This document shows, one piece after another, positions 15,425-37,756 of a DNA stretch of 64,000 nucleotides (position 1 is the first letter of the stretch; the number at the start of each line of letters is the position of its first letter). The notes beneath the pieces are model-generated. The model had not been told where the DNA came from and searched no databases. It saw nothing but the letters and a program-made list of their open reading frames with translations. The translations under genes were made by a program, and so were the position numbers. Source of the DNA: a virus; the IMG/VR virus record IMGVR_UViG_3300031963_000042, positions 39,209 to 103,208 of that record; one strand, 5' to 3'.

Positions 15425-15427
15425 TAA

Positions 15428-16318: not shown

Positions 16319-16329
16319 AGGTTGATTAG

Positions 16330-16409: not shown

Positions 16410-16428
16410 ATTTTTAAAAACAACATTA

Positions 16429-16500: not shown

Positions 16501-16511
16501 CAATAAAATAC

Positions 16512-16586: not shown

Positions 16587-16602
16587 CAAAAAATAATTTA
16601 AT

Positions 16603-16809: not shown

Positions 16810-16816
16810 AAATTAA

Positions 16817-16848
16817 TTTGAATAATACAAAAAAAGGTTATACCTTTG
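16817..16848 (+). promoter_or_regulatory. Promoter before tRNA-Phe
   Basis: TTTG at 16817-16820, 20 bp, TACCTTTG at 16841-16848; tRNA-Phe begins 12 nt further. Confidence 0.75.
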
Positions 16849-16860
16849 CAGAGCAAACAA

Positions 16861-16933
16861 GGTGACTAAGCTAACTAGGTAGAAGCGTAAGTCTGAAAAA
16901 CTTAAGGAGCCGGTTCGATACCGGCAGTCACCA
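16861..16933 (+). tRNA. tRNA-Phe(GAA)
   Basis: Acceptor GGTGACT/AGTCACC, anticodon arm TAAGT-CTGAAAA-ACTTA, T-loop TTCGATA. Confidence 0.9.
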
Positions 16934-16946
16934 CTAAACAACAAAC

Positions 16947-17156
16947 ATGAAAAATAACCAAACAAACGAGCAATTGCTGTCAGAGATCGACAAAAAGTAC
17001 AAAGTACTGTATGAAACAGTATTTAGTATTCTTTCAGATACTGTTGCAGCTGATTACGAAGGTAAGGATGATGATGTGAATATTATGTTCAATATCAGAT
17101 CTCTTGTTGGTCAACTCTCTCTATACGAGAGATATTATCCTGAAATGTTGTTTTAA
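16947..17156 (+). CDS. Small acidic protein (69 aa)
   Basis: Lies between tRNA-Phe and tRNA-Ser and must share their transcript. Helical, charged (MKNNQTNEQLLSEIDKKY...), no known motif. Confidence 0.5.
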   Translation: MKNNQTNEQLLSEIDKKYKVLYETVFSILSDTVAADYEGKDDDVNIMFNIRSLVGQLSLYERYYPEMLF

Positions 17157-17158
17157 TT

Positions 17159-17245
17159 GGAAGAGGCCCGGCATGGACGAGGACACTGTCTTGAAAACAG
17201 CTGGTCGGTAACACCGATTCGTGAGTTCGATTCTCATCTCTTCCG
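17159..17245 (+). tRNA. tRNA-Ser(TGA)
   Basis: Class II; acceptor GGAAGAG/CTCTTCC, anticodon loop CTTGAAA on an ACTGT/ACAG stem, long variable arm, discriminator G as expected for Ser. Confidence 0.92.
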
Positions 17246-17314
17246 CTTGAGATATCTATTCTTTAGATAGATAAGTAGATTTAGAGTATTATTTAATTCT
17301 TTTTGTATTAAATC

Positions 17315-17365
17315 ACGTAAGGGGGGTAGTTTATTGTAATATTAGCCCTACCCCCCATTGCGTGC
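17315..17365 (+). ncRNA. Long-hairpin RNA candidate 2
   Basis: CACGTAA-GGGGGGTAG pairs with CTACCCCCC-A-TTGCGTG around an 18-nt loop. Sits between tRNA-Ser and tRNA-Arg without an ORF. Resembles candidate 1 in having six-base G/C clamps. Confidence 0.4.
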
Positions 17366-17374
17366 CAAAAAATT

Positions 17375-17447
17375 GCCCCGTAGTTTAACGGATTAGAATA
17401 TATCACTACGAATGATAAGGTCTGGGTTCGATTCCTGGTGGGGCAAC
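17375..17447 (+). tRNA. tRNA-Arg(ACG)
   Basis: Acceptor TGCCCCG/TGGGGCA, anticodon arm TATCA-CTACGAA-TGATA, T-loop TTCGATT. A34 would be edited to inosine by TadA. Confidence 0.9.
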
Positions 17448-17454
17448 ATCGAAG

Positions 17455-17539
17455 GAGAGTAAAATAAGGAGGTCCTTGTCGCCGTTTGCTAAACGGATGG
17501 TACCTTAACAGGTATGTGCATCATGCGCACTGCTCTCCG
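17455..17539 (+). ncRNA. Multi-hairpin RNA candidate with AGGAGGT
   Basis: GGAGAG pairs with CTCTCC to close ~73 nt that hold four short hairpins: AAGG/CCTT with the Shine-Dalgarno-like AGGAGGT, CCGTTT/AAACGG, TACC/GGTA and GTGC/GCAC. It lacks a T-arm, so it is not a normal tRNA. May be a decayed tRNA or a new structured RNA. Confidence 0.3.
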
Positions 17540-17551
17540 CTCACTAATATG

Positions 17552-17621
17552 GGCCAGATTCCGAAGGCAGGAGGCTTCACTTGCAATGAAGCTATTTGGG
17601 TTCGATTCCCACTGTGTCCAC
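17552..17621 (+). tRNA. tRNA-Ala(TGC), imperfect acceptor stem
   Basis: Anticodon arm GCTTCA-CTTGCAA-TGAAGC is perfect and the T-loop TTCGATT normal. The acceptor GGGCCAG/TGTGTCC pairs fully only at positions 1-4 and keeps the alanine identity pair G3-U70. Shorter and less regular than its neighbours; may be weakly functional. Confidence 0.65.
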
Positions 17622-17629
17622 ACAATACT

Positions 17630-17702
17630 GGGGTGTATATCAGATGGTAGATTTCTTGGTTTGGGACCAAGAGGCCGCCGGTTCGAGCCCGGCTACCCCA
17701 AC
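17630..17702 (+). tRNA. tRNA-Pro(TGG)
   Basis: Acceptor TGGGGTG/TACCCCA, anticodon arm CTTGG-TTTGGGA-CCAAG, T-loop TTCGAGC. Confidence 0.92.
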
Positions 17703-17711
17703 AATTTTAAT

Positions 17712-17784
17712 CGGTATATAGTTCAGTGGTAGAACACTTCTCTCATAAGGAAGATGTCATTGGTTCGATTCCATTTATACCGAC
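17712..17784 (+). tRNA. tRNA-Met(CAT) or tRNA-Ile2
   Basis: Acceptor TCGGTAT/ATACCGA, anticodon arm CTTCT-CTCATAA-GGAAG. A paired first position excludes initiator tRNA. CAT could be lysidine-modified to read AUA. Confidence 0.88.
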
Positions 17785-17800
17785 AATAATCCAACAATAT

Positions 17801-17874
17801 TGGCATGTATTTCAGCTGGTTAGAATATCTCTCTGATAAGGAGAAGGTCGCCGGTTCAAGTCCGGCCATGCCAA
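17801..17874 (+). tRNA. tRNA-Ile(GAT)
   Basis: Acceptor TGGCATG/CATGCCA, anticodon arm TCTCT-CTGATAA-GGAGA, T-loop TTCAAGT. Confidence 0.92.
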
Positions 17875-17888
17875 CATAAAATTTTTAT

Positions 17889-17959
17889 GGCCTGATGTCA
17901 GAGTGTTTATGTGAACGATTGCAAACCGTTCTAGGTTGGTTAGATTCCAACTCAGGCCT
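17889..17959 (+). tRNA. tRNA-Cys(GCA)
   Basis: Acceptor GGCCTGA/TCAGGCC, anticodon loop TTGCAAA with an A-C mismatch closing it. The T-loop is TTAGATT, replacing the near-invariant C56 by A. Possibly compromised. Confidence 0.8.
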
Positions 17960-17968
17960 CAATTTAAC

Positions 17969-18042
17969 GTGCTCGTGGTGTTAATGGAATAGCATGGTAG
18001 TCTCCAAAACTATTGGTCTTGGTTCGAATCCAAGCGGGTGCG
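17969..18042 (+). tRNA. tRNA-Trp(CCA)
   Basis: Acceptor GTGCTCG/CGGGTGC with wobble pairs, anticodon arm GTAGT-CTCCAAA-ACTAT, discriminator G. Confidence 0.9.
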
Positions 18043-18051
18043 CAATTAGAA

Positions 18052-18134
18052 TGGTAGGTAGCCTAGTGGCCTAAGGCAATTGACTGTTAATCAATCGAGG
18101 AAACTCATCGAGGGTTCGAATCCCTCCCTACCAG
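18052..18134 (+). tRNA. tRNA-Asn(GTT) with long variable arm
   Basis: Acceptor TGGTAGG/CCTACCA, anticodon arm ATTGA-CTGTTAA-TCAAT, discriminator G. The variable region is 14 nt with GAG/CTC stem, a class II feature not expected for Asn. Confidence 0.85.
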
Positions 18135-18146
18135 CAACAACTACAT

Positions 18147-18231
18147 TCCGATGTCGCATAGCGGTTGATTGCACCTGACTTGTAATCAGGCCCTCTCACG
18201 AGGCACGCCAGTTCGAATCTGGCCATCGGAT
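18147..18231 (+). tRNA. tRNA-Thr(TGT) with long variable arm
   Basis: Acceptor TCCGATG/CATCGGA, anticodon arm CCTGA-CTTGTAA-TCAGG. Variable region includes CCTC-TCAC-GAGG, again class II-like and unexpected for Thr. Confidence 0.85.
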
Positions 18232-18243
18232 CTTAATTAACAT

Positions 18244-18316
18244 GGTCTATTGGTGTTAATGGCTAACATACTGCACTGTCTATGCTGAGCTCTCGGTTCG
18301 AATCCGTGATAGACCG
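18244..18316 (+). tRNA. tRNA-Asp(GTC)
   Basis: Acceptor GGTCTAT/ATAGACC, anticodon loop CTGTCTA, discriminator G; one T-T mismatch in the anticodon stem. Confidence 0.87.
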
Positions 18317-18328
18317 CTTAATAATACT

Positions 18329-18399
18329 GCGGATATAGTATAGTGGTATTACACTAGATTGCCAATCTAGTGACGTCAGTTCGATTCTGGTTATCCGCA
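18329..18399 (+). tRNA. tRNA-Gly(GCC)
   Basis: Acceptor GCGGATA/TATCCGC, anticodon arm CTAGA-TTGCCAA-TCTAG. Confidence 0.92.
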
Positions 18400-18410
18400 C
18401 ATAATAAATT

Positions 18411-18481
18411 GCGGATATCGTATAGTGGTAATATACTAGTCTTCCAAACTAATGCTGCCAGTTCGATTCTGGCTATCCGCA
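18411..18481 (+). tRNA. tRNA-Gly(TCC)
   Basis: Acceptor GCGGATA/TATCCGC identical to the preceding tRNA-Gly, anticodon loop CTTCCAA; a duplicate with changed anticodon. Confidence 0.9.
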
Positions 18482-18503
18482 CACAAAAATAATCTAATTA
18501 ACT

Positions 18504-18731
18504 ATGTCTAATATATCAAACAAAGGCCCATATACTAATTTTACAGAGTATTATCCTAATTATCCTCCTAACAATAATTATATACCCTTAGGTTGGCAAT
18601 GTCCGATATGTAAAACAGTTTATTCTCCTAATGTTTTATCATGCCACAAGCATGAAGATATTCAAAAAAATATAACATCATCTAGTACAGATACTGTTAA
18701 GGTAAATGATCATGAAAAACGTATTCTATAA
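18504..18731 (+). CDS. Small zinc-ribbon-like protein
   Basis: 75 aa. A Tyr/Pro/Asn-rich N-terminus (YYPNYPPNNNY) precedes W-Q-C-P-I-C-K-T-V-Y-S-P-N-V-L-S-C, a CPxC...C-x-H zinc-ribbon-like motif. Function unknown. Confidence 0.6.
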   Translation: MSNISNKGPYTNFTEYYPNYPPNNNYIPLGWQCPICKTVYSPNVLSCHKHEDIQKNITSSSTDTVKVNDHEKRIL

Positions 18732-18742
18732 TATAATAAATT

Positions 18743-18916
18743 ATGTATTACCTAATACTGTTATTCCCAATACTAATATTTGTTTTGGTTTTAATAGCAA
18801 TATGTTTTTATTTGGCATATTTGTATATAGCATTTACTTTGTTTTTTAATATAATTTTTGGTTTTATTTTTTTTATTTATATTGTTATAAAGCTTTTCTA
18901 TTTGGCAAAAAAGTAA
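18743..18916 (+). CDS. 57-aa double-membrane-spanning peptide
   Basis: Almost entirely hydrophobic: MYYLILLFPILIFVL..., a second helix of Phe/Ile and a final KLFYLAKK. Follows the zinc-ribbon gene by 11 nt. Size and layout suit a small membrane effector or accessory holin. Confidence 0.5.
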   Translation: MYYLILLFPILIFVLVLIAICFYLAYLYIAFTLFFNIIFGFIFFIYIVIKLFYLAKK

Positions 18917-18924
18917 TATCTTTG
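18917..18924 (+). promoter_or_regulatory. -7 box before tRNA-Leu(TAA)
   Basis: TATCTTTG overlapping the upstream stop codon, 11 nt before the tRNA. The upstream -33 box is poor (TTTT). Confidence 0.5.
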
Positions 18925-18935
18925 TATCACAAACT

Positions 18936-19019
18936 GGCCCGGTGGTGGAACAGGTAGACACGAGGGACTTAAAATCCCTTGGCCTTGCGGTCGTGCGGGT
19001 TCGATTCCCGTCTGGGCTA
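18936..19019 (+). tRNA. tRNA-Leu(TAA)
   Basis: Class II; acceptor GGCCCGG/CTGGGCT, anticodon arm AGGGA-CTTAAAA-TCCCT, T-loop TTCGATT. Confidence 0.92.
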
Positions 19020-19026
19020 CAATTTT

Positions 19027-19082
19027 GAGCCTCTTTGATATATTTATTGTTATTATGGACAATAGATTAATCAAAGAGGCTC
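19027..19082 (+). promoter_or_regulatory. Start-codon-enclosing hairpin
   Basis: GAGCCTCTTTGAT (19027-19039) is the exact reverse complement of ATCAAAGAGGCTC (19070-19082). The 30-nt loop contains the ATG at 19055. The right arm encodes the conserved L-I-K-E-A tag. Could control translation of the first metallopeptidase paralogue or terminate the tRNA transcript. Confidence 0.5.
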
Positions 19083-20242
19083 TTGGCGTTAGGCCTGAGT
19101 TGCTTGAAATTGCCAAGCAACTATATGCGGATATACTCTCAACTTTGAGTATACTTGATCCATCGACTAGTATCTTTTTTTTAGATAAAAAAGCATTTTT
19201 TTTAAACTTAAAAAACAATATTTTTTCTCTAAAAAAACTAAGTATTGGTTTTTCAATTAACCAAATAGGTTATAATCGCCTTGATATAATCAATTTTCAA
19301 ACTCAGATTCCAGGATCATTAGTAAATGATAGAATTATTTACTCCGATGGCTATAATAGTTATATCCTAATAAGGATAAACGCAGCTAGATATATGAGAG
19401 TATATGACCTCATGCATCATTTTAAGGAAGAAAAGGCGTTAATTGTTTCATCGTTATCTCACGAATTAAAACATTTTTTTGACTATTTAATTCAGAAATC
19501 AACTAAAACATCAAATGCTTATAAAGCAGAGGTTTATCGTCAATTATCTAGTGAGGAAAACAGAGTTAGTCAAATTATTAGTAATGGATGGTATCTCACG
19601 TCCATTAACGAACTCATAGTTGCACCAACTCATTTATATGCCGAACTGAGGTCTATGAATGTAACAAAGAAAACATTTTTAGAAGATTTAAAAAATAGTG
19701 ATGTAATAAAAAAATATCAAAATATCGCCAAGGATTTTTATTATGACCAAATTTATAGAAGAATTTTTGTCAGAATATCGGCAAGTATGGGGGATTCAGA
19801 TTTTAAGAATTCTACTTTCGATGAAAGTAAAAAATATGTTGAGGGAGGGATTACAAATCTTAACGAGTTGATTTCATTTGCTACCGAACTAACATTTTAT
19901 GAAGCCAGAAAAAATTTTTACAAATCAATATTAAATCAAATACTTAGCAATAATTCTAAGAATAATTTACCATTAGCTAATTTAACGCAAGAAAATATTG
20001 ACGATCCTAAAGCGTTATTATCATATCATAATATTTCTAAGACTGATTATTATTCAGAACCTGAATTTTCCTTGAAAGATTCCCCAGGCAAAAACAAACT
20101 TTTTTTTACACGTGAAATTAATAAAATAAGAGAGAGAGCAAATAATATTTTAATAAAGTTGTATAAAATATATTCATTATTGCCTGATCGTAAACCCCCT
20201 AATGTTAGCGGGAGTTATAAAAAGAAAATAAAAAATAATTAA
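19055..20242 (+). CDS. Tagged HExxH metallopeptidase-like protein, paralogue 1
   Basis: 395 aa from the ATG at 19055, which gives the same N-terminus as both paralogues (x-N-[RK]-L-I-K-E-A-L-G-V-R). H136-E-L-K-H140 is a zincin motif; a conserved S-I-N-E-L-x-V-x-P-T-x-L-Y-A-E-L segment ~50 residues later may supply the third zinc ligand. I-K-E at residues 6-8 is a candidate prohead-protease site. All three paralogues end in a similar helix (K-I-Y-S-L-L-P-D-R). Probably a packaged protease; substrate unknown. A hairpin covers the start. Confidence 0.65.
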   Translation: MDNRLIKEALGVRPELLEIAKQLYADILSTLSILDPSTSIFFLDKKAFFLNLKNNIFSLKKLSIGFSINQIGYNRLDIINFQTQIPGSLVNDRIIYSDGYNSYILIRINAARYMRVYDLMHHFKEEKALIVSSLSHELKHFFDYLIQKSTKTSNAYKAEVYRQLSSEENRVSQIISNGWYLTSINELIVAPTHLYAELRSMNVTKKTFLEDLKNSDVIKKYQNIAKDFYYDQIYRRIFVRISASMGDSDFKNSTFDESKKYVEGGITNLNELISFATELTFYEARKNFYKSILNQILSNNSKNNLPLANLTQENIDDPKALLSYHNISKTDYYSEPEFSLKDSPGKNKLFFTREINKIRERANNILIKLYKIYSLLPDRKPPNVSGSYKKKIKNN

Positions 20243-20258
20243 TTATATAGTGACTAAG

Positions 20259-20267
20259 ATATTTATT
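20259..20267 (+). promoter_or_regulatory. ATATTTATT element before paralogue 2
   Basis: Ends 4 nt before the ATG at 20272. If this is a -10 element the message would be leaderless. Confidence 0.35.
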
Positions 20268-20271
20268 CTTT

Positions 20272-21447
20272 ATGAAGAATAAATTAATCAAAGAGGCTCT
20301 TGGCGTTAGGCCTGAATTATTTAAATTAGCACAGATCGTTTATACGGAAGTGCTCTCTTATTTGAGAGCTAATAAAGATATACTGATAGGTAAGAATCCG
20401 GAACATTCAATCAATGTTAAAATTGGTAATTTTCCTTTGATGTTAGCTTTTAAAGATAAAGCAGAATTCATTTTAGATTATATTAAAGAAATTGAAGTCG
20501 AACTTAGGTTCATCTATACTAAAGATGAGAGCCCTGAAATAAAAACCGCAGCATTTAGTATTCCGTATGTTAGTGTACGTGATTATTATATTTCTAAACA
20601 TAAGGCTAAGCCTGTTATTGAATTTAGAGTAACAGGTAAAAAAAATATAAAATTTTCACAGATAGCAGATTTTTTAGTTGAAAAAGAGCCTAAAATAATT
20701 ACTCTATTAGCCCACGAGCTAAAGCATATGTATGATGCTTTAATTGGTCATAAAAGATATCCTGCCAATGATGTAAGTTATGCTGCTAGTGTTAAACCAG
20801 TATTTAATAAAGACATTATTGAATATGGTAAAAAAATAGCTGAAGCTGCGTATTACACAAGTATCGTAGAGTTACACATTAGAGCTACTGAGATTTATGC
20901 TTATTTAATGTCAAGATCAATCACTAAAAAAGAATTTTTAAATGAATTAAGCGAATTATCAATCATATTGAGATATAAAGGGTATATAAAAACTTTTGAT
21001 TATGATTTATTCATTGCTCAAATCTTTCAAGATTTGGCAAAATCTAACAATAATAGATCTTTATATCATATGACCGAAAAAGTATTTAACGTTAAAAATC
21101 CTAGCATAGATACAGTGAAATATGTTGGAGTTGAATACATATTATATTTAATTCGGAAAGATTACTTTAAAAATGTGTCAAATATTAGTAAAAATATATT
21201 TCCTTTTTATAATTTTATTTCTTTCTGGAAAAAATTTGGCTTTTTTAAAAAAGAGCAAAATGTCAATCCTAAAGATATTATTAATAAATTAAGTGTTGGC
21301 AATTATTATAACGAACCTAAATTTACTAAAGAAAGTATAAAGAGAAACAGTTTTTTTTTCAAAAAAATGTTTAAAACGATAAGATACAGATCTCATAATA
21401 TTTTAAGAAAATTGTATAAAGTTTACTCATTATTACCTGACAGGTAA
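20272..21447 (+). CDS. Tagged HExxH metallopeptidase-like protein, paralogue 2
   Basis: 391 aa. Same architecture as its neighbours: MKNKLIKEALGVR tag, A-H-E-L-K-H-M-Y-D zinc motif near residue 145, S-I-V-E-L-x-I-R-A-T-E-I-Y-A-Y-L, and the terminal Y-S-L-L-P-D-R. Most divergent of the three in the N-terminal beta region. The first ~35 bp after the start are almost identical to paralogue 1 while the rest has diverged, suggesting selection on the tag. ATATTTATT ends 4 nt before the ATG. Confidence 0.65.
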   Translation: MKNKLIKEALGVRPELFKLAQIVYTEVLSYLRANKDILIGKNPEHSINVKIGNFPLMLAFKDKAEFILDYIKEIEVELRFIYTKDESPEIKTAAFSIPYVSVRDYYISKHKAKPVIEFRVTGKKNIKFSQIADFLVEKEPKIITLLAHELKHMYDALIGHKRYPANDVSYAASVKPVFNKDIIEYGKKIAEAAYYTSIVELHIRATEIYAYLMSRSITKKEFLNELSELSIILRYKGYIKTFDYDLFIAQIFQDLAKSNNNRSLYHMTEKVFNVKNPSIDTVKYVGVEYILYLIRKDYFKNVSNISKNIFPFYNFISFWKKFGFFKKEQNVNPKDIINKLSVGNYYNEPKFTKESIKRNSFFFKKMFKTIRYRSHNILRKLYKVYSLLPDR

Positions 21448-21500
21448 CAGCCTTTTTATAGCTTCCGCTATAAAAAAAAGGTGATTTTTAATTATATAGC

Positions 21501-21509
21501 ATATTTATT
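21501..21509 (+). promoter_or_regulatory. ATATTTATT element before paralogue 3
   Basis: Ends 4 nt before the ATG at 21514, same spacing as paralogue 2. Confidence 0.35.
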
Positions 21510-21513
21510 TGTT

Positions 21514-22713
21514 ATGAAAAACAAATTAATCAAAGAGGCTCTAGGCGTTAGAGAAGAATTGTTTAATGCCGCAAAATTAATTTATTCTGAAATAATTCAG
21601 AAATTAAACCTAATTGGCTTACATAAAAATGTAACCGAATTAGAAAATTCGGTATTAAGATTAGATTTAAAATCTAATATTAATTATCTACAAAAAATAG
21701 ATGTTTATTTTGATATAAAATATCATGATAAAGATACTATAGATATCATTGGTCTTGTTGCTCGAATGTCGACATCACTTAAAAATGATAGAGTTCACTA
21801 TTCAACTAGTGATACAGCAAATTTAGTAATAGAATTAGAGTCTAATCGCAGCAAAGAAATTGATGATGTTGTCAAAAATTTACAAACCAATTCAAATTTA
21901 TATGTACCATCAATAGCTCACGAATTAAAACATTTTTTTGATAATACAACTGAAAGATCAAATAATCTTAAAAGACGATTAAAATATAAAGCTTATCTTG
22001 ATTTAAGTAATAACTCTAACACAATTACTCAAATTGTTGCTGATGCTTGGTATCGTACATCTATTGATGAATTGTTAGTAATTCCAACCGAAATATATTC
22101 AGAATTAAAGTATATGAATATAACAAAAAAAAATTTTTTAGATGCATTAAAAAATTCTAAATATATTGTTATATATAAAGACTATATCGATAATCTTTAC
22201 TACGATAAAATATATAACACAACACTTAAACAAGTCCTGGAATCTTTTGAAGAAGACCCACAGACTAAATATCAAGTGTTTGAGCGTAGCAAAAAATATG
22301 TAGATCAAGGGATATCTAATAACTATACTTTAGCCTTATTTTTAACAGAACTCTTATTCTATAGAACCAGAGCTTCGTTTTATGATGAAATACGAAATGG
22401 AATAATTAGAAAGTATGAGCCGTTAGATCCTATACGTGATATTGCGTTTATGCTTGGGATGATCTCAAGAAGAGATATTACTGACCCTAAAGCATTATTA
22501 CTATATAATAAGATGTCCAAAAATAATTATTACGCTGAACCAGAGTTTTCGTTTAAAGATTCACCAACGAGAAATGAGATATTTTTTGAACGTGAATTTA
22601 AAAAAATAAGGCGTAAATCGGCTAATATTCTAAAAAAGATATATAAAATATACTCATTGCTACCTAATAGGATCCCACCTCGTGTTAGTGGAAGTTATAA
22701 AAAAAAGGGTTAA
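21514..22713 (+). CDS. Tagged HExxH metallopeptidase-like protein, paralogue 3
   Basis: 399 aa; the upstream in-frame start at 21481 is rejected because the ATG at 21514 restores the shared MKNKLIKEALGVR tag. A-H-E-L-K-H-F-F-D at about residue 140; S-I-D-E-L-L-V-I-P-T-E-I-Y-S-E-L further on. Closest to paralogue 1 in its C-terminal half (D-P-K-A-L-L-x-Y-x-x-x-S-K ... Y-x-E-P-E-F-S). Tandem duplication followed by divergence. Confidence 0.65.
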   Translation: MKNKLIKEALGVREELFNAAKLIYSEIIQKLNLIGLHKNVTELENSVLRLDLKSNINYLQKIDVYFDIKYHDKDTIDIIGLVARMSTSLKNDRVHYSTSDTANLVIELESNRSKEIDDVVKNLQTNSNLYVPSIAHELKHFFDNTTERSNNLKRRLKYKAYLDLSNNSNTITQIVADAWYRTSIDELLVIPTEIYSELKYMNITKKNFLDALKNSKYIVIYKDYIDNLYYDKIYNTTLKQVLESFEEDPQTKYQVFERSKKYVDQGISNNYTLALFLTELLFYRTRASFYDEIRNGIIRKYEPLDPIRDIAFMLGMISRRDITDPKALLLYNKMSKNNYYAEPEFSFKDSPTRNEIFFEREFKKIRRKSANILKKIYKIYSLLPNRIPPRVSGSYKKKG

Positions 22714-22729
22714 ATAATATGTAAACACA

Positions 22730-22761
22730 TTTGATTGTCTGGAATAAAGATCTTACCTTTG
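22730..22761 (+). promoter_or_regulatory. Promoter before tRNA-Leu(TAG)
   Basis: TTTG at 22730-22733, 20 bp, TACCTTTG at 22754-22761; tRNA begins 11 nt later. Confidence 0.75.
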
Positions 22762-22772
22762 TAGTGCAAAAC

Positions 22773-22854
22773 AGCCGGGTGGTGAAATTGGTAGACACGA
22801 AAGACTTAGAATCTTTTGGCTTATGTCATGCGGGTTCGATTCCCGTCCCGGCTA
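22773..22854 (+). tRNA. tRNA-Leu(TAG)
   Basis: Class II; acceptor AGCCGGG/CCCGGCT, anticodon arm AAAGA-CTTAGAA-TCTTT, T-loop TTCGATT. Confidence 0.92.
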
Positions 22855-22863
22855 CACATACAA

Positions 22864-22937
22864 TGGCCCGTAGCTCAGCAGGTTAGAGCGTCTGACTCAT
22901 AATCAGAGGGTCGCAGGTTCAAATCCTGTCGGGCCAA
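22864..22937 (+). tRNA. tRNA-Met(CAT), second copy
   Basis: Acceptor TGGCCCG/CGGGCCA, anticodon arm TCTGA-CTCATAA-TCAGA, T-loop TTCAAAT. One of the two CAT tRNAs may be the AUA-reading Ile2. Confidence 0.9.
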
Positions 22938-22960
22938 CTATAATAAATTGACTTTTCAAT

Positions 22961-28729: not shown

Positions 28730-29329
28730 ATGGAAATAACTGAAATTATTGTTGCAGTAATAAGTGGTATTATTGGCCCAATATTACTTCTTGTGCTTAA
28801 AGATAAGTACGAGAATCGTAAGAAAAAAAATGATGTCGTTGTTGACGCTTTAATCCTAAGTGAAAAAGTCATGGATAAGCTGGAATATATTAAGGACGAA
28901 TTTGAAGCCGATAGAGTATGGATAGCACAATTTCACAATGGGGGTAATTTTTATCCTACAGGTAAATCGATAGCAAAATTTAGCATAATATACGAAACCG
29001 TTAATTTAAACGTTGCATCAATTCAATCTAATTTCCAAAACATACCGGTAACGTTATTTAGCAAATCAATAAATCAATTATATGAAAACGACATAATCGC
29101 CATACAAGATTATACAGACGATAATGTTTTAACATATGGCCTAAAGTATATTGCTGAAGAATCCGGATGTAAATCAGGTTATTTATTTGCAATAAAGACA
29201 ATTGATCATAAATTTATTGGTATATTAGGCCTTGATATTACAAAAAGTGTCCGTAATTTTGATCAAATGCAGATTTTACATCTCAGTAATCATGCTGCCA
29301 GTCTTGGCGGTGTTCTTAATACTCGATAG
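28730..29329 (+). CDS. Membrane-anchored GAF-like protein
   Basis: 199 aa from the ATG at 28730; the upstream in-frame start at 28691 would overlap the terminator. N-terminal transmembrane helix (IIVAVISGIIGPILLLVL), basic stop-transfer region, then a ~140-residue alpha/beta domain with D-R-V-W-I-A-Q-F-H-N-G-G and S-G-Y-L-F-A-I-K ... I-G-I-L-G-L-D, the strand pattern of GAF-type sensor domains. No output domain. ATATTTATT at 28701-28709. Confidence 0.6.
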   Translation: MEITEIIVAVISGIIGPILLLVLKDKYENRKKKNDVVVDALILSEKVMDKLEYIKDEFEADRVWIAQFHNGGNFYPTGKSIAKFSIIYETVNLNVASIQSNFQNIPVTLFSKSINQLYENDIIAIQDYTDDNVLTYGLKYIAEESGCKSGYLFAIKTIDHKFIGILGLDITKSVRNFDQMQILHLSNHAASLGGVLNTR

Positions 29330-30173
29330 ACTCATCACGAAATAGCTTGTATATTTCATCTTCGATGAAATCCGGGTCATATAGTCTTATATTTAAAAAT
29401 TTATTATATCTGTCATCTGCTCTTAATTTAACATCAGAAGAATCGAATTGTTTTAGAACAAATGTCTTATTGTGGTATTTTTCATCGATACTAAGACATA
29501 TAGTATTATTTACATAATCACCATAATCTTCAACTACTATACTTAAGCAATAGTTTTTTCCGCAAAAAAATTTAATATCATCATTTTCCCTTAGTTCACT
29601 AAATGGAATATGTTCATTTTTTTCTAATTTTTTCCTGATGTAATTATTAACATCATTGTTTAGCGAGTACGCAGCATAGACATGTATATCAACATACGGC
29701 TCGCCATCTATTCTTCCTCCTTCGCAATCAGGGCAGCTTATCTCACCTAAACCTTCACATTCACTGCATTCTATATGACCTTCACCGCTACAACCTGGGC
29801 ATACCTCACCATCTTCAATTTCAGAGCAATATGGGCATTCTATTAGCCCATAAGAACAGTTATCACAGTCATAAAACCCTTTATTGCAGCTACAAGAATA
29901 TGAGTAATTTGTTTGTGAAAAACTTACAAAATATGTAAATCTAATATCCTTAATAATTCTGTTAATAATAGAATCTAAGTACGGGTCATTTTTATGGTGA
30001 TTAAAAACTAAATTACCCAAAAATAACGTTGTTGTGTCAAATCCGGATCTTAACATGGATTGAAATATTTTCGAACCAAAAATATCAAATTCAGAGCCAA
30101 GCCCAATAAGTTTATAATTTCTTTTTTTAAGAAGATTATATACCACCTTTACAGATTTATTGTTTATTTTCAT
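29316..30173 (-). CDS. DnaJ-type zinc-finger protein, paralogue 4
   Basis: 285 aa. The Cys-rich centre (~100-165) has repeated CxxC pairs (C-D-N-C, C-P-Y-C, C-P-G-C-S-G-E-G, C-S-E-C-E-G-L-G, C-P-D-C-E-G-G), the layout of the DnaJ zinc domain. It lacks a J-domain. The N-terminal ~95 residues are shared with three upstream paralogues and the C-terminal part is a beta domain. Start overlaps the preceding stop (ATGA). Confidence 0.7.
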   Translation of the reverse strand: MKINNKSVKVVYNLLKKRNYKLIGLGSEFDIFGSKIFQSMLRSGFDTTTLFLGNLVFNHHKNDPYLDSIINRIIKDIRFTYFVSFSQTNYSYSCSCNKGFYDCDNCSYGLIECPYCSEIEDGEVCPGCSGEGHIECSECEGLGEISCPDCEGGRIDGEPYVDIHVYAAYSLNNDVNNYIRKKLEKNEHIPFSELRENDDIKFFCGKNYCLSIVVEDYGDYVNNTICLSIDEKYHNKTFVLKQFDSSDVKLRADDRYNKFLNIRLYDPDFIEDEIYKLFRDESIEY

Positions 30174-31069
30174 TCTTTACAAAAATTACTTTTTAAAATG
30201 CTGGTTATACTGGGTTTAGTGCGTAGATAAAATGTTGTATGATTTAAAGTTAATAAAATGTTAGGATCAAATAAATCGTATACGCCAATAACATAGCTAT
30301 TGGCGTAATATTTTTCATCTATATCGAAATTTATCGCACCATCATAATCATAATATGAAAGGGTGAAATCTTCGACGTTCATTCTCATTTGACCAACATT
30401 TACGTTTTTATTAAATATTAATTTATCCATTTCAATAAGAAAATCTTCATAATCGCCTTCATTATTATACTCTATAAACTGATAGGTTAACCTATCATTT
30501 AATTCCTCTTTCATTGAATAGTAACCAATAACATCTATTTCTGTGAAATCATTTGTAGATAAATAACCTGCCCCATCGCACTCATCACACAAAATATAAC
30601 TATCACCCTCACAATTTCCACAACCAATCTCACCACTACCCAAGCATAGTTCACAATCAATTATTTCCTCAGTCTCTTCATCAGCTTGATTTCCTGTACC
30701 ATTGCAACTATCACACTTTATAGTTCCTGCACCATCGCATAGGCCACATTCATGATAACCATCTTCACAAGAACAGCCAATAGTACTATTTTTTTCGCTA
30801 AATTCAACGACAACAAATATTCTTAAATTTTTAAGAATGAAATTCAATGTCTCCTCTGGAGGTTCATATGAGTTTAACATAATTGAAAGAAGGTTTATAA
30901 TAAAAATTGTTTTATCGTCAAAACTATTTTTAATAGTTTTAGAAATAGCTGTAGATAATGTGCCATAAAATTTAATATAGTTATTATGGCTTATATTATG
31001 CTCATAATCTCTAGAGTTTCTAAGTCTTTTAGCTAAATTTATTACTATTTTTTTAGTACTTGGTGTCAT
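30170..31069 (-). CDS. DnaJ-type zinc-finger protein, paralogue 3
   Basis: 299 aa. Shared helical N-domain (K-T-I-K-N-S-F-D-D-K-T ... L-R-I-F-V-V-V-E-F-S), then C-S-C, C-G-L-C-D-G-A-G, C-D-S-C-N-G-T-G, C-E-L-C-L-G-S-G, C-G-N-C, C-D-E-C-D-G-A-G: five or six zinc half-sites versus four in DnaJ. C-terminal beta domain with V-I-G-V-Y-D-L-F-D-P. Part of a four-gene minus-strand operon. Confidence 0.7.
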   Translation of the reverse strand: MTPSTKKIVINLAKRLRNSRDYEHNISHNNYIKFYGTLSTAISKTIKNSFDDKTIFIINLLSIMLNSYEPPEETLNFILKNLRIFVVVEFSEKNSTIGCSCEDGYHECGLCDGAGTIKCDSCNGTGNQADEETEEIIDCELCLGSGEIGCGNCEGDSYILCDECDGAGYLSTNDFTEIDVIGYYSMKEELNDRLTYQFIEYNNEGDYEDFLIEMDKLIFNKNVNVGQMRMNVEDFTLSYYDYDGAINFDIDEKYYANSYVIGVYDLFDPNILLTLNHTTFYLRTKPSITSILKSNFCKE

Positions 31070-31072
31070 ATC

Positions 31073-31939
31073 TTAAGTAAAATGAGTTTCTAATATTGAT
31101 TCTATTCTAGGATCGAAATCAACCATAAAATAGGTTTCGTTTATACTTAGTATTATTTTCGGGTCAAATAAATCAAAAACGCCTAAAACATATGACTTAC
31201 CATAATAATCTTCACTAATTTCAAAATTTATCACACCAGAACCAAAATTTTCATGATTAACGTCAAAATCTTCCAATATATCAAAGTAATGCGTATTTTT
31301 AACATTAATATTACCAGCATTCTTAGGTTTGCTTTTTTTACCATCAATATTTAATGCTAAGTCAGAATAAATATCAATAGATTCCCGGTCTAAGGTAAAG
31401 AAAGAATAAGGTTTTATCTCAGCATAAGGTCCTTCCTTATAATAACCACGTCCATTGCAATCGTTACAGTCATAAAAGCCTTCACCTCCACAATAATTAC
31501 AAGGAAGCTCTCCTGAGCCAGAACATTGTTCACATTCATATACTTCATCATCATCCTCAAAAGTTAATGAACCCTCTCCATCACAATGATCGCATGTAAT
31601 TGTCCCCCTTGAGCATTCATCGCAAGGAAATGTTCCAGAATCACAATAACAATAAACATCATCTAATCTATCACTAATATGAACAACTAAAAATATTTTT
31701 AAGTTATCCAGTACTCGTTTTAGCGTTATTTCAGGTGGTTCTAATTCATTTAATTCGTCCGCAAGTACACTTATCAGCAATACAAATTTAGGCGAAAAAC
31801 TGTTTTTAATAGTTTTAGCTAATGCCGAATAAATAGGTATAGGAAATTTTACTCTATAACCTTGTTTGTAGCCTTTAGAAGATTTTAAACGTTTAGCTAC
31901 AGTTATTAACGCTTTTTTATTTATGTTATTATTGCTCAT
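31073..31939 (-). CDS. DnaJ-type zinc-finger protein, paralogue 2
   Basis: 288 aa. Same three-part design as its neighbour, with which it shares I-K-N-S-F and the C-terminal L-G-V-F-D-L-F-D-P-K-I. Cys repeats: C-Y-C, C-D-E-C, C-D-H-C-D-G-E-G, C-E-Q-C-S-G-S-G, C-N-Y-C-G-G-E-G, C-N-D-C-N-G-R-G. Paralogues 2 and 3 are the closest pair. May hold unfolded chains or bind RNA; not testable from sequence. Confidence 0.7.
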   Translation of the reverse strand: MSNNNINKKALITVAKRLKSSKGYKQGYRVKFPIPIYSALAKTIKNSFSPKFVLLISVLADELNELEPPEITLKRVLDNLKIFLVVHISDRLDDVYCYCDSGTFPCDECSRGTITCDHCDGEGSLTFEDDDEVYECEQCSGSGELPCNYCGGEGFYDCNDCNGRGYYKEGPYAEIKPYSFFTLDRESIDIYSDLALNIDGKKSKPKNAGNINVKNTHYFDILEDFDVNHENFGSGVINFEISEDYYGKSYVLGVFDLFDPKIILSINETYFMVDFDPRIESILETHFT

Positions 31940-32758
31940 TTATGTAAATAAATTTTCTATCATATCGGATACTTTATATATATCTTTAAAAGTAACCAGA
32001 AATAATCTATTCAAAATGTTATTTTTAATGATTAAATCATCATCATATAAGTCATTTATAGTTAATAAGTATTTGTTTCCACAGTATTTCTTATGAATCA
32101 TCGCGCAGATTTCGTCGCCATCTTCGTAATTTCTATCTTCAAAAAATCCATTGACTAATTCTTGGGTGTTTTCTTTTGATAACAAATTTTCTATTGGCTT
32201 TTTATTCTGTAAGGCATCCTCAAACTTATTTTTGTTTGTACTAGAAATAAACACTAAAGAAGAAATTTCGTAGTTACAATAAGATTCTGATTTAACATAA
32301 CCCTCACCTTCACAGTTTTCGCATGGGATAAATGTTGTTCCATAACATTCCGGGCATTCTACTTCTCTGCTACCTTTGCACCTTCTGCAAGATCTATCTC
32401 CAGTGTATTTGCAATCAGGGCATTTAATATTCCCAGTATCACAATCGCAGAAAAGTTGTTTACCCCCATTACATTTTCGACACAAAATTTTATTTAACGC
32501 ATTACTAAATGTAACAATTACCCCTATTCTAATATTATTTTTTACTCGCGTAATAGTCTCCTCAATTGACTCATTATCATTTAATTCAATATAAATTATT
32601 GCGATTAATAGTAATGTCTTACTATCAATAGAGGTTAATAATGTTTTCAAAAAGATATTCGACCCCCAGTATTTCATACTTAGAATTGAGTATGGGTGTT
32701 TAGATATCTCTTTTCGTTGAAATTGCTTCAATAATTTAACTATTAATTGGTTATTCAT
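31940..32758 (-). CDS. DnaJ-type zinc-finger protein, paralogue 1
   Basis: 272 aa, first gene of the operon. Cys repeats C-R-K-C-N-G-G, C-D-C, C-P-D-C, C-R-R-C-K-G-S, C-P-E-C-Y-G-T, C-E-N-C-E-G-E-G. N- and C-domains align with the other paralogues but more weakly. A minus-strand ATATTTATAG element lies ~20 nt upstream of the start. The tmRNA gene lies immediately upstream on the same strand. Confidence 0.7.
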   Translation of the reverse strand: MNNQLIVKLLKQFQRKEISKHPYSILSMKYWGSNIFLKTLLTSIDSKTLLLIAIIYIELNDNESIEETITRVKNNIRIGVIVTFSNALNKILCRKCNGGKQLFCDCDTGNIKCPDCKYTGDRSCRRCKGSREVECPECYGTTFIPCENCEGEGYVKSESYCNYEISSLVFISSTNKNKFEDALQNKKPIENLLSKENTQELVNGFFEDRNYEDGDEICAMIHKKYCGNKYLLTINDLYDDDLIIKNNILNRLFLVTFKDIYKVSDMIENLFT

Positions 32759-32826: not shown

Positions 32827-33089
32827 TGGAGGCGGAGGCATCGAAGCCTCGTCTTGCCCGTAAAATAATTAAACATCTACACGTTTAGGATGCCATTAAT
32901 ATTCTGGCCCAGGATATTATTAAAAATAAGACTAAACTAAAACTGTTGAATCGTCATATTTAACGATTCCGTTCAAAACTAAATTGTCAATAATGTTGCC
33001 ATTTGTTGTGTTGAATTGTTTTTAAGAGTACAATACAAACTCTACGTGCATTTAATTACGTTTAACGTCAATCAATTCCTTTCGCCCCC
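32827..33089 (-). ncRNA. ssrA: tmRNA (transfer-messenger RNA)
   Basis: About 263 nt. The ends form a 7-bp acceptor (GGGGGCG at 33089-33083 with CGCCTCC at 32834-32828) and a T-arm (GAGGC-TTCGAT-GCCTC). The 3' part CTAAACGTGTAGA and ACGGGCAAGACGAGG matches the conserved bacterial tmRNA 3' domain. A pseudoknot like PK1 can be drawn (GAGT/ACTC and ATTGT/ACAAT, 33042-33015), followed by an A-rich segment and a reading frame. The best tag frame (33000-32935) gives 22 residues, G-N-I-I-D to S-T-V-L-V; a 6-residue alternative frame exists. Rescues stalled ribosomes and marks products for proteolysis. Confidence 0.85.
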
Positions 33090-33107
33090 TTGTTTATAAA
33101 CTTTACG

Positions 33108-33139
33108 CAAAGATATAAATATTTTATTTATTACGCAAA
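33108..33139 (-). promoter_or_regulatory. tmRNA promoter
   Basis: On the minus strand TTTG (33139-33136), 20 bp, TATCTTTG (33115-33108), then 18 nt to the tmRNA 5' end. Perfect Bacteroidota-type promoter. Confidence 0.82.
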
Positions 33140-33175
33140 TAAACCTTTCGGTTTATTTTAAATATAACTTGTTTA

Positions 33176-33202: not shown

Positions 33203-34264
33203 ATGTTATCAGAAAAAATTATCGATTTTTTAAACAAAGATATATCAAAATCTGAATTAATTAAATTTTTATATATAGAAAGTGATGGGAATTACAATAT
33301 AAGTATTTTAGGTAATTATTTACTTGTTTTTGATTTAAAATCAGATCTTAATTATTTAGTAGAAATTATTAAAAATGATGATGGGTTTAAAAGTGATAAA
33401 GAATATGAATTTTTTAGCAGAGTGTTAAATCAGTATTATAACCTGGCAAGTTATTATAACATTGATGATCGGGCATACTCTGATAGTTATGAATATGTTA
33501 CGGAAGACAATTATCTTTGTGATATATATTCTACTCGTGTTCAGGAAAAAATTTCTGAATATGCTAGAAAATTGGGACTTAGTGAATGTCAGGATTTAAT
33601 AAAATTATTTGATAAATATATTAATTATGATAGGATTTCAGACGAACATGCATCACAACGTATTGATGATTATTCTAATATAACTTTTAGTAGTGTTGAA
33701 AATACCTTAGAAACATTTTTGAGGTTAATATTAGGGTTTACTGTGTTAAATCGGAATGAAAAAACATATTATATTAGTCTAACCAAACTTTTGAGAATAT
33801 TAAAAGTTTTTGAAAACATCCACGATCAAACGTATGAAACATTCACAGAATACATTTCTAAGGTTTACTATAATACAACCTCAATAGATGAAGATTTTGT
33901 ATACGAATACATAGATGAGTGTTTTTGGGAGACATCTGTAACAGATAGTGAAGCCTATGAAAAAGTTATTATTGATGTGTTAGAGGATGCTTATATTGAA
34001 GTATTAGAACAACGCAGGGATATTAAAGAATTTAATGAAATTATTAATTTCATCGAAAAAAAATTAAAAATTGAGATAGGTTATATGGTTTATCACCCAT
34101 TACCAAAAAATCCTAAAATTGAGTTTAGAGTTAAATCCATATCAGAAGATAATAAAATTTTGGTACTGTATAAAAATGTTGATGAGTATTTACCTAAAAG
34201 TGCTCAATTATCATTTGATAATTTCAAATTATTTCTTTATCATCCAGAATTAGATCTAAAATAG
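33203..34264 (+). CDS. Uncharacterised helical protein (353 aa)
   Basis: Rich in Tyr, Asp and Glu, largely helical, no membrane segment or known motif. C-terminal ~60 residues are beta-rich. ATATTTATT at 33176-33184. Followed after 6 nt by the peptidase gene, so co-transcribed with it. Confidence 0.55.
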   Translation: MLSEKIIDFLNKDISKSELIKFLYIESDGNYNISILGNYLLVFDLKSDLNYLVEIIKNDDGFKSDKEYEFFSRVLNQYYNLASYYNIDDRAYSDSYEYVTEDNYLCDIYSTRVQEKISEYARKLGLSECQDLIKLFDKYINYDRISDEHASQRIDDYSNITFSSVENTLETFLRLILGFTVLNRNEKTYYISLTKLLRILKVFENIHDQTYETFTEYISKVYYNTTSIDEDFVYEYIDECFWETSVTDSEAYEKVIIDVLEDAYIEVLEQRRDIKEFNEIINFIEKKLKIEIGYMVYHPLPKNPKIEFRVKSISEDNKILVLYKNVDEYLPKSAQLSFDNFKLFLYHPELDLK

Positions 34265-34270: not shown

Positions 34271-35128
34271 ATGGATACAAACAGTGTTTTACTTTTGAAA
34301 AAAATTTTGTCAGTCCCTACAAAAACAGGAAAAGAGGATTTAATGGTCAAATTCATTACAGAATGGCTATTAGAAAATAACATACATTATTATGTTGATG
34401 TGCATAAGAATATTTATGCTACAAAATTAGACTCACAATCAGATGCAAACAAAGATCAAATATTCCCATGTGTCATCTCCCATACAGATACCGTTCATGG
34501 AATTGACACTATTAATGTTGTCGAAGAATACAAGCTAAATGCGCAAAAACAACGAAAATTAGCATTGACAGCTTATAATGATCTTGGCTGGGCAACAGGT
34601 ATTGGTGGTGATGATAAATGCGGTGTGTTTGCTTGTTTGACTTTGCTAAAGGAACTTCCAGTACTTAAAGCAGCTTTTTTTGTTTCTGAAGAAAATGGTT
34701 GCAACGGATCTAAGTTCGCAGATCCAGAATTCTTTAAAAACGTAGGCTATGCAATACAATTTGACGCACCGGAAAACAATCTTGTAACAGAAACTTGTTT
34801 TGGGGTTAAATTGTTTGATAGAGATAGCGAATTTTTCAAAAAATGTGATAATGTAATAAAAGAAAATTATGTAAGTGAGGTTAAATACATGAATCATCCA
34901 TATACTGATGTGTATGCCTTGAAAAAGATTTTTGATTTTTCATGTCTTAATTTATCAATAGGTTACTATGATTATCACACATCAAAAGAATATGTAGTTA
35001 TTGAGGATGTCTTTAATGGAATTAATGTTGGTAGGAATTTGATCGCCTTACTAGGATGTGAAAAATATAAATATGAATGGACAGATAAATTTCAGTTAGG
35101 AAGCGGATCTTTAGCGTCAATTTTTTAG
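34271..35128 (+). CDS. M20/M28-type metallopeptidase (PepT-like)
   Basis: 285 aa. S-H-T-D-T-V-H (zinc ligands His, Asp), G-I-G-G-D-D-K-C-G (bridging Asp), S-E-E-N-G (catalytic Glu pair), D-A-P, and Y-D-Y-H-T-S-K-E-Y with the last His. This is the catalytic domain of dinuclear zinc exopeptidases. It is shorter than PepT (about 410 aa) because the lid/dimerisation domain is missing or reduced. Cytoplasmic. It could finish peptides released by the phage Clp protease. Confidence 0.82.
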   Translation: MDTNSVLLLKKILSVPTKTGKEDLMVKFITEWLLENNIHYYVDVHKNIYATKLDSQSDANKDQIFPCVISHTDTVHGIDTINVVEEYKLNAQKQRKLALTAYNDLGWATGIGGDDKCGVFACLTLLKELPVLKAAFFVSEENGCNGSKFADPEFFKNVGYAIQFDAPENNLVTETCFGVKLFDRDSEFFKKCDNVIKENYVSEVKYMNHPYTDVYALKKIFDFSCLNLSIGYYDYHTSKEYVVIEDVFNGINVGRNLIALLGCEKYKYEWTDKFQLGSGSLASIF

Positions 35129-35183: not shown

Positions 35184-37187
35184 TTATATTATCACAATTT
35201 CATTATTCTCGTACTTAACAGTATACTCTGTATTTTCAAGCATTGTATCATACAGGATACCATCTGAGATCTTATTTTCAAGATTAAACGTGATAGCTCG
35301 TTTTATGGGCCTAGCTCCAAATTCTGGATCAAATCCTACTTTTGATATGTAGTCAATAACTGACTCATCAAAATTTAGCTTATAATTTAAATCCTCCATT
35401 CTAGTCTTAAGTTCATTTATCTCGATTTTAACCACTTTTTTAATATCAGCTTCTGATAGAGAATTAAAATAAACAATGTCATCAATTCTATTAAGAAATT
35501 CTGGGGCAAAGAAATTTTTAAGTTCTTTCTTTAGATAACTCTTTCTTTCTTCATCTTGTTTGTACGCATCTGCTGGCTTTGAAAAGCCAATACCACCACC
35601 TAAGTCTTGGAATCGTTTAATCCCCAGGTTTGACGTCATAATTATAATGCAATTTTTAAAATTGATAGTTTTACCTAATGCATCTGTAATATGACCATCA
35701 TCAAGTATTTGCAGTAGTAATGAGAAAATATTCTTATGAGCTTTTTCTATTTCATCCAGAAGAACAACAGAATATGGTTGATTTTTAACTTTTTCTGTCA
35801 ATTGTCCACCTTCTTCATATCCTACAAATGATGGCGGAGCACCGATCAATCTAGATATTGTATGTTGTTCTTGATATTCACTCATATCAAGTCTTATCAA
35901 GTTATCCTCACTACCAAACATTTCTTTTGCCAGTTTTTTCGCTAGATGAGTTTTACCAACACCTGTTGGGCCTAAGAAAATAAATGATCCGATAGGTTTC
36001 TTAGAGTCTTTTACACCAATTCTATTTCTCTTAATAGATTCAGAAATCAGTTTAACAGCATCTTTTTGACCGATTACCTGCTCAGATAGTACGCTATCAA
36101 GGTTTTTTAGAACATTTTTCTGATTAACATCAAGTTTAGATATTGGGATGTTGGTCATATTTGAAACTACATCATAAACAGAATCTAATGTGACGATTTT
36201 TTTGTCTTCAGACATTGATTTTTGAAATTTTTCTTTTTCAGCATCTAGCTTGGCAAGAATTTTCTTTTCTTTATCCCTCAGTTCTGCTGCTTCTTCGTAA
36301 TTTTGGTTTCTAACGACATCAATCTTTTTATTTTTAATCTCTTGGGCTTTAGCCTTAAGCTCGTCAATAATTTCAGGAGTTTTAATAGTTATTTGATACC
36401 TAGCCCCCAATTCATCCATGACATCAATTGCTTTATCTGGAAATTCTCTATTTGGCATATATCTATCAGCCAATTTAACACAGGCCATTAGAACTTCATC
36501 AGAAAAGGTAACTTTGTGATGAGATTCATATCTTCCAGCAATATTTTTAAGTATCTCATACGTTTCAGAGATGCTTGACCCATTTACGGTAACTTTTTGA
36601 AACCTCCGGTCCAAAGCACCATCTTTTTCGATATGCTTTTTGTATTCATCAAATGTAGTTGCCCCAATGCACTGTAGTTCACCTCTAGCCATAGCTGGCT
36701 TAAAAATATTTGAGGCGTCAAGAGAACCGGAAGAATTTCCAGCACCAACCATAGTATGAATTTCATCAATAAAGATAATAATGTGTGGGTTAGCTTTAAG
36801 CTCTTGCATTATTACTTTCATTCTCTCTTCAAATTGCCCTCTATATTTTGTTCCGGCAACTACGGAAGTTAGATCTAGTGTATAGATTTTTTTGTCTACT
36901 AGATTTCTAGGGCAATTACCTTCAACAATTTTCATAGCTAGGCCTTCGACGATTGCTGTTTTACCGCAGCCAGGATCACCAATAAGAATAGGGTTATTTT
37001 TCTTTCGTCTAGAAAGGATTTGAGCTATTCTTAGAATTTCCTTTTCTCTACCGACAACAGGATCCAGTTTACCTTCCTCAGCCATTTTGTTTAGGTCTCG
37101 GCAGAAATTATCCAAAGCAGGGGTATCGCTATCAGATGATCTACTTAATTTTTTACTCGTTTGATTTTCATCCATTTCGTCTATCAT
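35184..37187 (-). CDS. clpC: ClpC-like AAA+ unfoldase without N-domain
   Basis: 667 aa from the ATG at 37187 (bacterial ClpC is about 810-850 aa). Missing the N-terminal adaptor/substrate domain. D1: G-D-P-G-C-G-K-T and F-I-D-E-I-H. A UVR-type motif in the middle region ([12 protein letters not shown]) marks it as ClpC-type. D2: [20 protein letters not shown], and arginine-finger region F-L-N-R-I-D-D. The D2 loop G-G-G-I-G-F-S-K contains I-G-F, the tripeptide that docks into ClpP, so it should work with the ClpP at 12592. Confidence 0.93.
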
Positions 37188-37270
37188 GTTTTTAATGTTT
37201 TTTATAAACTTACAAAAATTGTGCTTAACCGTCAAGTTATACGAATATTATGTACAAATTGTCAGCCACA

Positions 37271-37399: not shown

Positions 37400-37756
37400 A
37401 TGGAACACGACAGATTTATTAAATTTTTGATGGACTACTTTGGTGACAGTGGTCTAAAAAGCCGGAACTACAGTTATAGTCTCGGATCACCCTTTGTTAC
37501 TGTTTATTACACAACAAATCTTGACGACAATCCAACAGAAACCACTGAGTATTTAGAAAAGTTGTTAGAAAGTGCAATCAAGACTGAAAATTATGAGCTT
37601 GCAATTAAAATAAGGGATAAGCTCGCAAAATCAAATAATCCGGAAATTGATTCTTTGAAAGAGGAACTTGAATCTGCGGTTAAAGAGCAAAATTTTGAAC
37701 GAGCGATAGAACTAAGGGATAAGATCGCAAATCTAACAAATAAAGCGCACAAATAG
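37400..37756 (+). CDS. Two-UVR-motif protein (McsA-like adaptor candidate)
   Basis: 118 aa. Two tandem UVR motifs: L-L-E-S-A-I-K-T-E-N-Y-E-L-A-I-K-I-R-D-K and L-E-S-A-V-K-E-Q-N-F-E-R-A-I-E-L-R-D-K. The same motif type occurs in the divergently transcribed ClpC-like ATPase. UVR helices mediate UvrB-UvrC and McsA-ClpC contacts. No McsA-type zinc fingers in the N-terminal ~45 residues. Proposed partner or regulator of the phage unfoldase. Confidence 0.65.
   Translation: MEHDRFIKFLMDYFGDSGLKSRNYSYSLGSPFVTVYYTTNLDDNPTETTEYLEKLLESAIKTENYELAIKIRDKLAKSNNPEIDSLKEELESAVKEQNFERAIELRDKIANLTNKAHK

Follow-up and report, generated by a model that had tools for sequence, protein, structure and literature searches.

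Background

Transfer-messenger RNAs (tmRNAs) of phages have already been described (PMC4131195), and huge phages are known to carry tmRNA together with SmpB (PMC7162821). Like the molecule reported here, the huge-phage RNAs belong to large phages and have a tag that does not end in ALAA, but that tag is shorter and unrelated. Long phage tags without ALAA are also already known: the tmRNA of Mycobacterium phage Alice (Bxz1-like) has the tag ATDTDATVTDAEIEAFFAEEAAALV, which is likewise long with a hydrophobic non-ALAA end, but its sequence is dissimilar and its gene is located in a tRNA cluster. Bacillus phage G, another large phage with a non-ALAA tag, has the tag AKLNITNNELQVA, which is shorter and unrelated. 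Both tags were read with the same tool as those of Bacteroidota genomes, where tags are 9-10 residues long and end in L/M-A-A (GENNYALAA, GETNYALAA, GNNNYALAA, GEYNYALAA, ANDYSYAMAA and DNNYSYRLAA). To our knowledge, the reasons why phages carry a tmRNA are largely untested.

The window analysed here is a 64,000-nt stretch of a 103-kb IMG/VR virus contig that carries terminase, portal and major head genes. It encodes a tmRNA that resembles those of Bacteroidota hosts (RF00023) in being a one-piece molecule with a tRNA-like domain, helix 2 (H2), pseudoknot 1 (PK1) and a resume codon of the GGN type that is also frequent in hosts, but differs in lacking the block of pseudoknots 2-4 and in belonging to a family with tags of 20-22 residues of other sequence. 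On sequence, this tag family is separate from the earlier long non-ALAA phage tags. No description of the conserved tag family with its Clp/PepT cassette was found in the open-access literature searched, and no DNA-level match was found in named phages.

Identification of a phage tmRNA

33089 (5' end) to 32827, minus strand: tmRNA, mature form 263 nt, matching Rfam RF00023 over the whole model
33015 to 33045 (approximate ends), minus strand: PK1, 14 nt before the resume codon

Infernal with the Rfam model RF00023 gave a match of 75 bits (cut-off 47, E 2.6e-27) that covered model positions 1-374 and spanned 33089-32824 on the minus strand. An initial annotation, made from the letters of the window, had proposed a phage tmRNA of about 263 nt with tRNA-like ends and a PK1-like pseudoknot, to be checked with this model; each of these elements was recovered, and the mature molecule measures 263 nt. 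The acceptor stem (GGGGGCG/CGCCUCC) is paired at 7 of 7 positions and carries the G3-U70 alanine signal, which was found in all 35 tmRNAs examined; charging itself is predicted. The discriminator, the A at 32827, is followed by CAA; an encoded CCA is thus absent here, as it is from the tmRNAs of several relatives. ARAGORN listed 21 tRNAs and did not report a tmRNA at 33089-32827, which may be because the T-loop has 6 nt (UUCGAU) instead of the usual 7, above a T-stem that is paired at 5 of 5 positions. The same 6-nt T-loop is seen in one relative (L111), so that it occurs in two tmRNAs of the family.

The distal part of H2 is paired at 6 of 6 positions and the proximal part forms 10 bp; its sequence is unlike that of every relative, yet the pairing is kept. 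PK1 consists of stems S1 (AGAGU/ACUCU) and S2 (AUUGU/ACAAU), which were equalled in 3 of 300 shuffles, and in relatives both stems are swapped for other paired sequences (CGGAA/UUCCG and UGAAUUA/UGAUUCA). Folding of the whole RNA gave a z-score of -2.97, with 0 of 200 shuffles as good. Since the paired positions hold bases unlike those of the relatives, the tmRNA looks to be maintained by selection, and a pseudogene reading is disfavoured by the compensated helices. The window RNA is most likely a functional phage tmRNA, a conclusion that we hold with high confidence.

The window also contains a large tRNA set at 13292-22938, comprising the 21 tRNAs of ARAGORN and two found by Infernal; the ARAGORN set is apparently without tRNAs for Ala, Ser, Tyr and Cys.

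A conserved tag family

32935 to 33000, minus strand: tag frame of 22 codons, GNIIDNLVLNGIVKYDDSTVLV, with stop TAG at 32934-32932, assigned by homology to related phage tags
32949 to 32970 (approximate ends), minus strand: hairpin within the tag frame (GAAUCGUUA ... UGACGAUUC), z -2.28

Relatives were gathered in IMG/VR by means of three proteins (the ClpC-like protein, the peptidase and the portal), and their tmRNAs were located with Rfam or with an nhmmer profile derived from those found first. About 88 distinct related tmRNAs were obtained from IMG/VR phages, and all readable ones encode tags of 20-22 residues that form one family, with examples GNVLDKMALLGLVKQDELVSVA, GNVINKLSAVGLIRAEEAVVA, GNTFAKLAALGLTREEAVVTI and GNVYNNMEVAGLLATSKVAA. 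Among the Bacteroidota genomes, one ARAGORN tag call of 14 residues, in L448, looks misread.

The frame GNIIDNLVLNGIVKYDDSTVLV, whose resume codon is GGC at 33000, fits the family pattern GN-x-x-(N/D)-K-(L/M)-x3-G-(L/I)... and has 5-8 of its 22 residues in common with other 22-residue tags. Among 200,000 residue shuffles, 4 matched the 22-residue tags by position as well as this frame does, and among 56,083 open nucleotide shuffles 0 did, which opposes chance resemblance to the family. A local profile HMM built from 52 tags, an insensitive measure, gave the frame 3.8 bits, not above shuffled segments. In E. coli, an A (A86) stands four bases ahead of the resume codon (PMC2481249). In agreement with this rule, which the window tmRNA follows, an A at -4 is preceded by a pyrimidine at -5 in 82 of 82 related tmRNAs.

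The initial annotation had stated that no frame of the tag ends in ALAA, which is correct, and had offered two frames, of 22 and 6 residues. Comparative evidence selects the former. The 6-residue frame (GCA..., ATLLTI) was rejected because it lacks homologs and has an A at -5, an arrangement that in E. coli causes a -1 shift of the frame. The tag is accordingly long and unlike that of the host, as had been proposed, with 22 residues against 9-10 in Bacteroidota hosts, and its family is conserved. The accompanying statement that some other phage tmRNAs have long divergent tags agrees with the tag of Alice, read as a control.

In the set of 21-codon tags, substitutions pile up at third positions, and pN/pS is 0.62 in the tag frame compared with 0.92 and 0.93 in the other two frames; together these indicate that the tag peptide itself is under selection. 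At the C-terminus, the window tag has V (VLV) where most relatives have A (for example VVA or AVA). A tag of this length, with a C-terminus unlike those of host tags and, in the window, ending in VLV, could simply replace the host ALAA degron and spare rescued phage proteins from host ClpXP, with no phage protease involved. We consider this improbable, because the small hydrophobic ends of most relatives' tags are degron-like and because, as described below, an unfoldase with a ClpP-docking loop is kept nearby in most relatives.

The body of the tmRNA is reduced

Measured over the span to 32824, the window tmRNA is 266 nt long, whereas its relatives have 381-421 nt. About 120 nt are gone, corresponding to PK2, PK3 and most of PK4, and in this the molecule is unlike all relatives. 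Pseudoknots 2-4, which most bacterial tmRNAs have but which are dispensable, were not recognised, and a weak hairpin is left in their place (z 0.17). A candidate pseudoknot after the tag (AAUAU...GGGCCA...AUAUU...UGGC) was rejected, as its connecting loop would be 2 nt and its fold is no better than that of shuffles. No relative with the same short tmRNA was found through the neighbouring proteins or by pattern in IMG/VR.

The missing block could conceivably be an assembly deletion, but the flanks are compensated, which argues for a real molecule. The reduced tmRNA is probably still functional, to judge from the same compensated helices. In E. coli, tmRNA does not lose activity when its pseudoknots are replaced (PMC2481249); pseudoknots are partly missing from plastid and some cyanobacterial tmRNAs, and the shortest apparently functional tmRNA listed has 250 nt (PMC1168896). 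At 263 nt, the window molecule would be close to the minimum size of a functional one-piece tmRNA.

The loss of PK2-4, the 6-nt T-loop and the lack of a reduced relative could also be read as signs that, in this phage alone, the tmRNA is decaying or has become a decoy that binds SmpB or ribosomes but tags poorly; inhibitors of tmRNA that consist of the tRNA-like domain have been discussed for phage DS6A (PMC4131195). This reading seems very improbable to us. The acceptor stem, T-stem, H2 and PK1 have all been re-paired with different bases, the tag is open and ends in a stop, the promoter is perfect, and the short T-loop recurs in another relative, while the published precedents given above suggest that missing pseudoknots and a length of 250 nt are compatible with function.

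Promoter, terminator and host

33139 to 33108, minus strand: Bacteroidota-type promoter, TTTG-N20-TATCTTTG, 19-50 nt upstream of the mature 5' end
about 32824 to 32796 (approximate ends), minus strand: intrinsic terminator, AGCCAAGACGAUUGUUUUGGCU then UUU, read from the sequence

Both the perfect Bacteroidota promoter and the terminator lie at the places predicted for them in the initial annotation. Of 80 distinct related tmRNAs, 44 have the strict pattern TTTG-N20-TATCTTTG in front of them, where shuffles would give 0.47. Because the promoter is of Bacteroidota type and the nearest cellular relatives of the ClpC-like protein described below are from Bacteroidota, the host most likely belongs to that phylum. 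A perfect palindrome, AAATAAACC-TTTC-GGTTTATTT, at about 33137-33158, overlaps the -33 element of the tmRNA promoter and is possibly an operator or a terminator end.

The tmRNA is part of a conserved cassette

33203 to 34264, plus strand: 353-aa protein of a fast-evolving family, assigned by family linkage at this position
34271 to 35128, plus strand: PepT-like, compact M20-clan di-metal peptidase, assigned by its metal ligands and AlphaFold model
35184 to 37235, minus strand: ClpC-like double AAA+ unfoldase without an N domain and with an IGF loop (Pfam AAA_2, AAA_lid_9 and ClpB_D2-small)

The cassette runs in the order tmRNA (minus strand), 353-aa protein (plus), PepT-like peptidase (plus) and ClpC-like unfoldase (minus). 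Among 80 loci anchored on the peptidase, 75 have a tmRNA, which is encoded on the strand opposite to the peptidase with a median gap of 1170 nt. The ClpC-like gene is also seen in 71 of these 75, and its relative orientation never varies. Five peptidase loci show no tmRNA; in four of them the contig starts about 1.3 kb or less from the peptidase, which leaves the place of the tmRNA outside the sequence. When the portal, which is far from the cassette, was used as the anchor, 7 of 7 tmRNAs were beside the peptidase and 6 of 7 beside ClpC. The order is looser in a divergent clade with SmpB, where about 25 kb lie between ClpC and the tmRNA in one record (G049). Such synteny may stem from shared regulation instead of one pathway.

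At the position of the 353-aa protein, 57 of 57 proteins form one linked family, with 18-26% identity to the window protein, which gave no Pfam match and no PDB fold match. The peptidase also lies below family cut-offs (19.8 against 24.6 bits in Pfam, and far below in NCBIfam). Its metal ligands H71, D73, D114/D115, E140/E141, D165 and H236 are nevertheless invariant in 31 homologs, and its AlphaFold model (pLDDT 84.7) has the PepT tripeptidase 3gb0 as best PDB match (E 6e-11). The catalytic-domain fold and all metal ligands are common to the phage protein and to Peptidase T and M42 aminopeptidases (3gb0, 1fno, TET); compared with Peptidase T (M20B), the phage protein, at 285 aa, is very compact.

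Directly downstream of the tmRNA and on the same strand, four tandem paralogs with DnaJ-like CXXCXGXG zinc fingers (29316-32758, minus strand) give weak matches to BSD2_CRD and DnaJ_CXXCXGXG; such genes are seen in 10-12 of 80 loci per related set.

Clp machinery and SmpB

12592 to 13275, minus strand: ClpP (Pfam CLP_protease, E 8e-56)
37400 to 37756, plus strand: 118-aa protein carrying a pair of UVR motifs (two stretches matching Pfam UVR, E 1.1e-15)

The phage's own Clp machinery, invoked in the initial annotation, is indeed encoded in the window, where both ClpP and the ClpC-like unfoldase are present. The best PDB match of the latter is ClpC 6em8. Like ClpC of Firmicutes and Actinobacteria (6em8, 3j3t, 8a8u), it has two AAA+ modules, a short UVR middle domain and a [VIL]GF loop, but it differs in lacking the N-terminal adaptor-binding (Clp_N) domain. 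This arrangement is general among the phage proteins: 71 of 71 homologs have a loop of the [VILM]GF type, known to dock onto ClpP, and 0 of 71 have the N domain, and 30-50 residues precede the first AAA+ module, compared with 178-237 in cellular relatives. The adjoining 118-aa UVR protein is McsA-like and is possibly a ClpC adaptor.

In the window ClpP, the Ser-His-Asp triad is apparently kept (GIAASMG, MLHQ, QRDLW). A ClpP gene is visible in 6 of 42 related records, many of which are fragments; the other 36 show none, and in phages that do lack the gene the unfoldase would need host ClpP. No SmpB was found in the 103-kb record, which may be incomplete, and SmpB is missing from 40 of the 42 related records. 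The remaining two, G049 and G058 (L422), encode it, which means that tmRNA and SmpB occur together in part of this phage group; in G049 (L421, G049:171073-171947), SmpB starts 46 nt after the tmRNA.

These absences bear on another explanation, in which ribosome release is the sole job needed of the tmRNA, host proteases handle the tag, and the neighbours, kept in one region, are genes of translation or stress with no connection to it. In its favour, tag function is not critical for phage propagation in E. coli (PMC2481249), most related records show no ClpP, and host SmpB must be used. Release alone, however, needs neither a tag frame that evolves as a protein nor its conservation across about 88 tmRNAs, and the tight synteny with the unfoldase and peptidase also speaks against it. 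On balance we judge this explanation unlikely, though it retains some weight.

ClpC-like proteins of 55-57% identity occur in the huge phages LR745206 and LR756502, in neither of which a full tmRNA was found at E 1e-8. A further huge phage of 484 kb encodes a 112-nt molecule (L458, LR756508.1 414804-414915) with little beyond the tRNA-like domain of a tmRNA, which resembles the DS6A case. It also has a full tmRNA (L456); one frame of this RNA gives GVNNADYESAGFTAEDFAQMDGESLYHGSERKPAAV, and the call made by ARAGORN differs.

A possible private degradation route

The RNA structure, reading frame, tag homology, synteny, ClpP-docking loop and peptidase ligands are observed or computed, and they suggest that the phage ClpC-like protein may recognise the tag. 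From synteny and motifs, the best single account, to which we give even odds, is that the tag is a degron for this unfoldase acting with ClpP, followed by PepT-like trimming. Under this degron model, the tmRNA would be transcribed from its own Bacteroidota-type promoter and trimmed at both ends, host enzymes would add CCA and alanine, and host SmpB would bring the charged molecule to stalled ribosomes. Translation would resume at GGC (33000), appending Ala and GNIIDNLVLNGIVKYDDSTVLV to the stalled product. The hydrophobic C-terminus and conserved body of the tag may then be engaged by the N-domain-less unfoldase, which would thread the product into ClpP, the phage's own in this case and the host's in relatives without ClpP. 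The PepT-like peptidase would cut the resulting peptides to free amino acids. The phage would profit, in the course of infection, from the rescue of ribosomes and the reuse of amino acids without depending on the host ALAA route.

More tentatively, a large group of Bacteroidota phages may possess a self-contained protein-recycling line whose parts have stayed together, made up of a tmRNA with a private 22-residue degron, an N-domain-less ClpC-like reader, ClpP and a PepT-like finisher. Because the tag is conserved and unlike that of the host, and lies beside a peptidase and an unfoldase whose ClpP-docking loop is intact, the idea of a private degron is open to a simple degradation assay. If it is true, phages divert the quality control of bacteria towards recycling failed proteins, and the tag and unfoldase would form an orthogonal degradation system for Bacteroidota.
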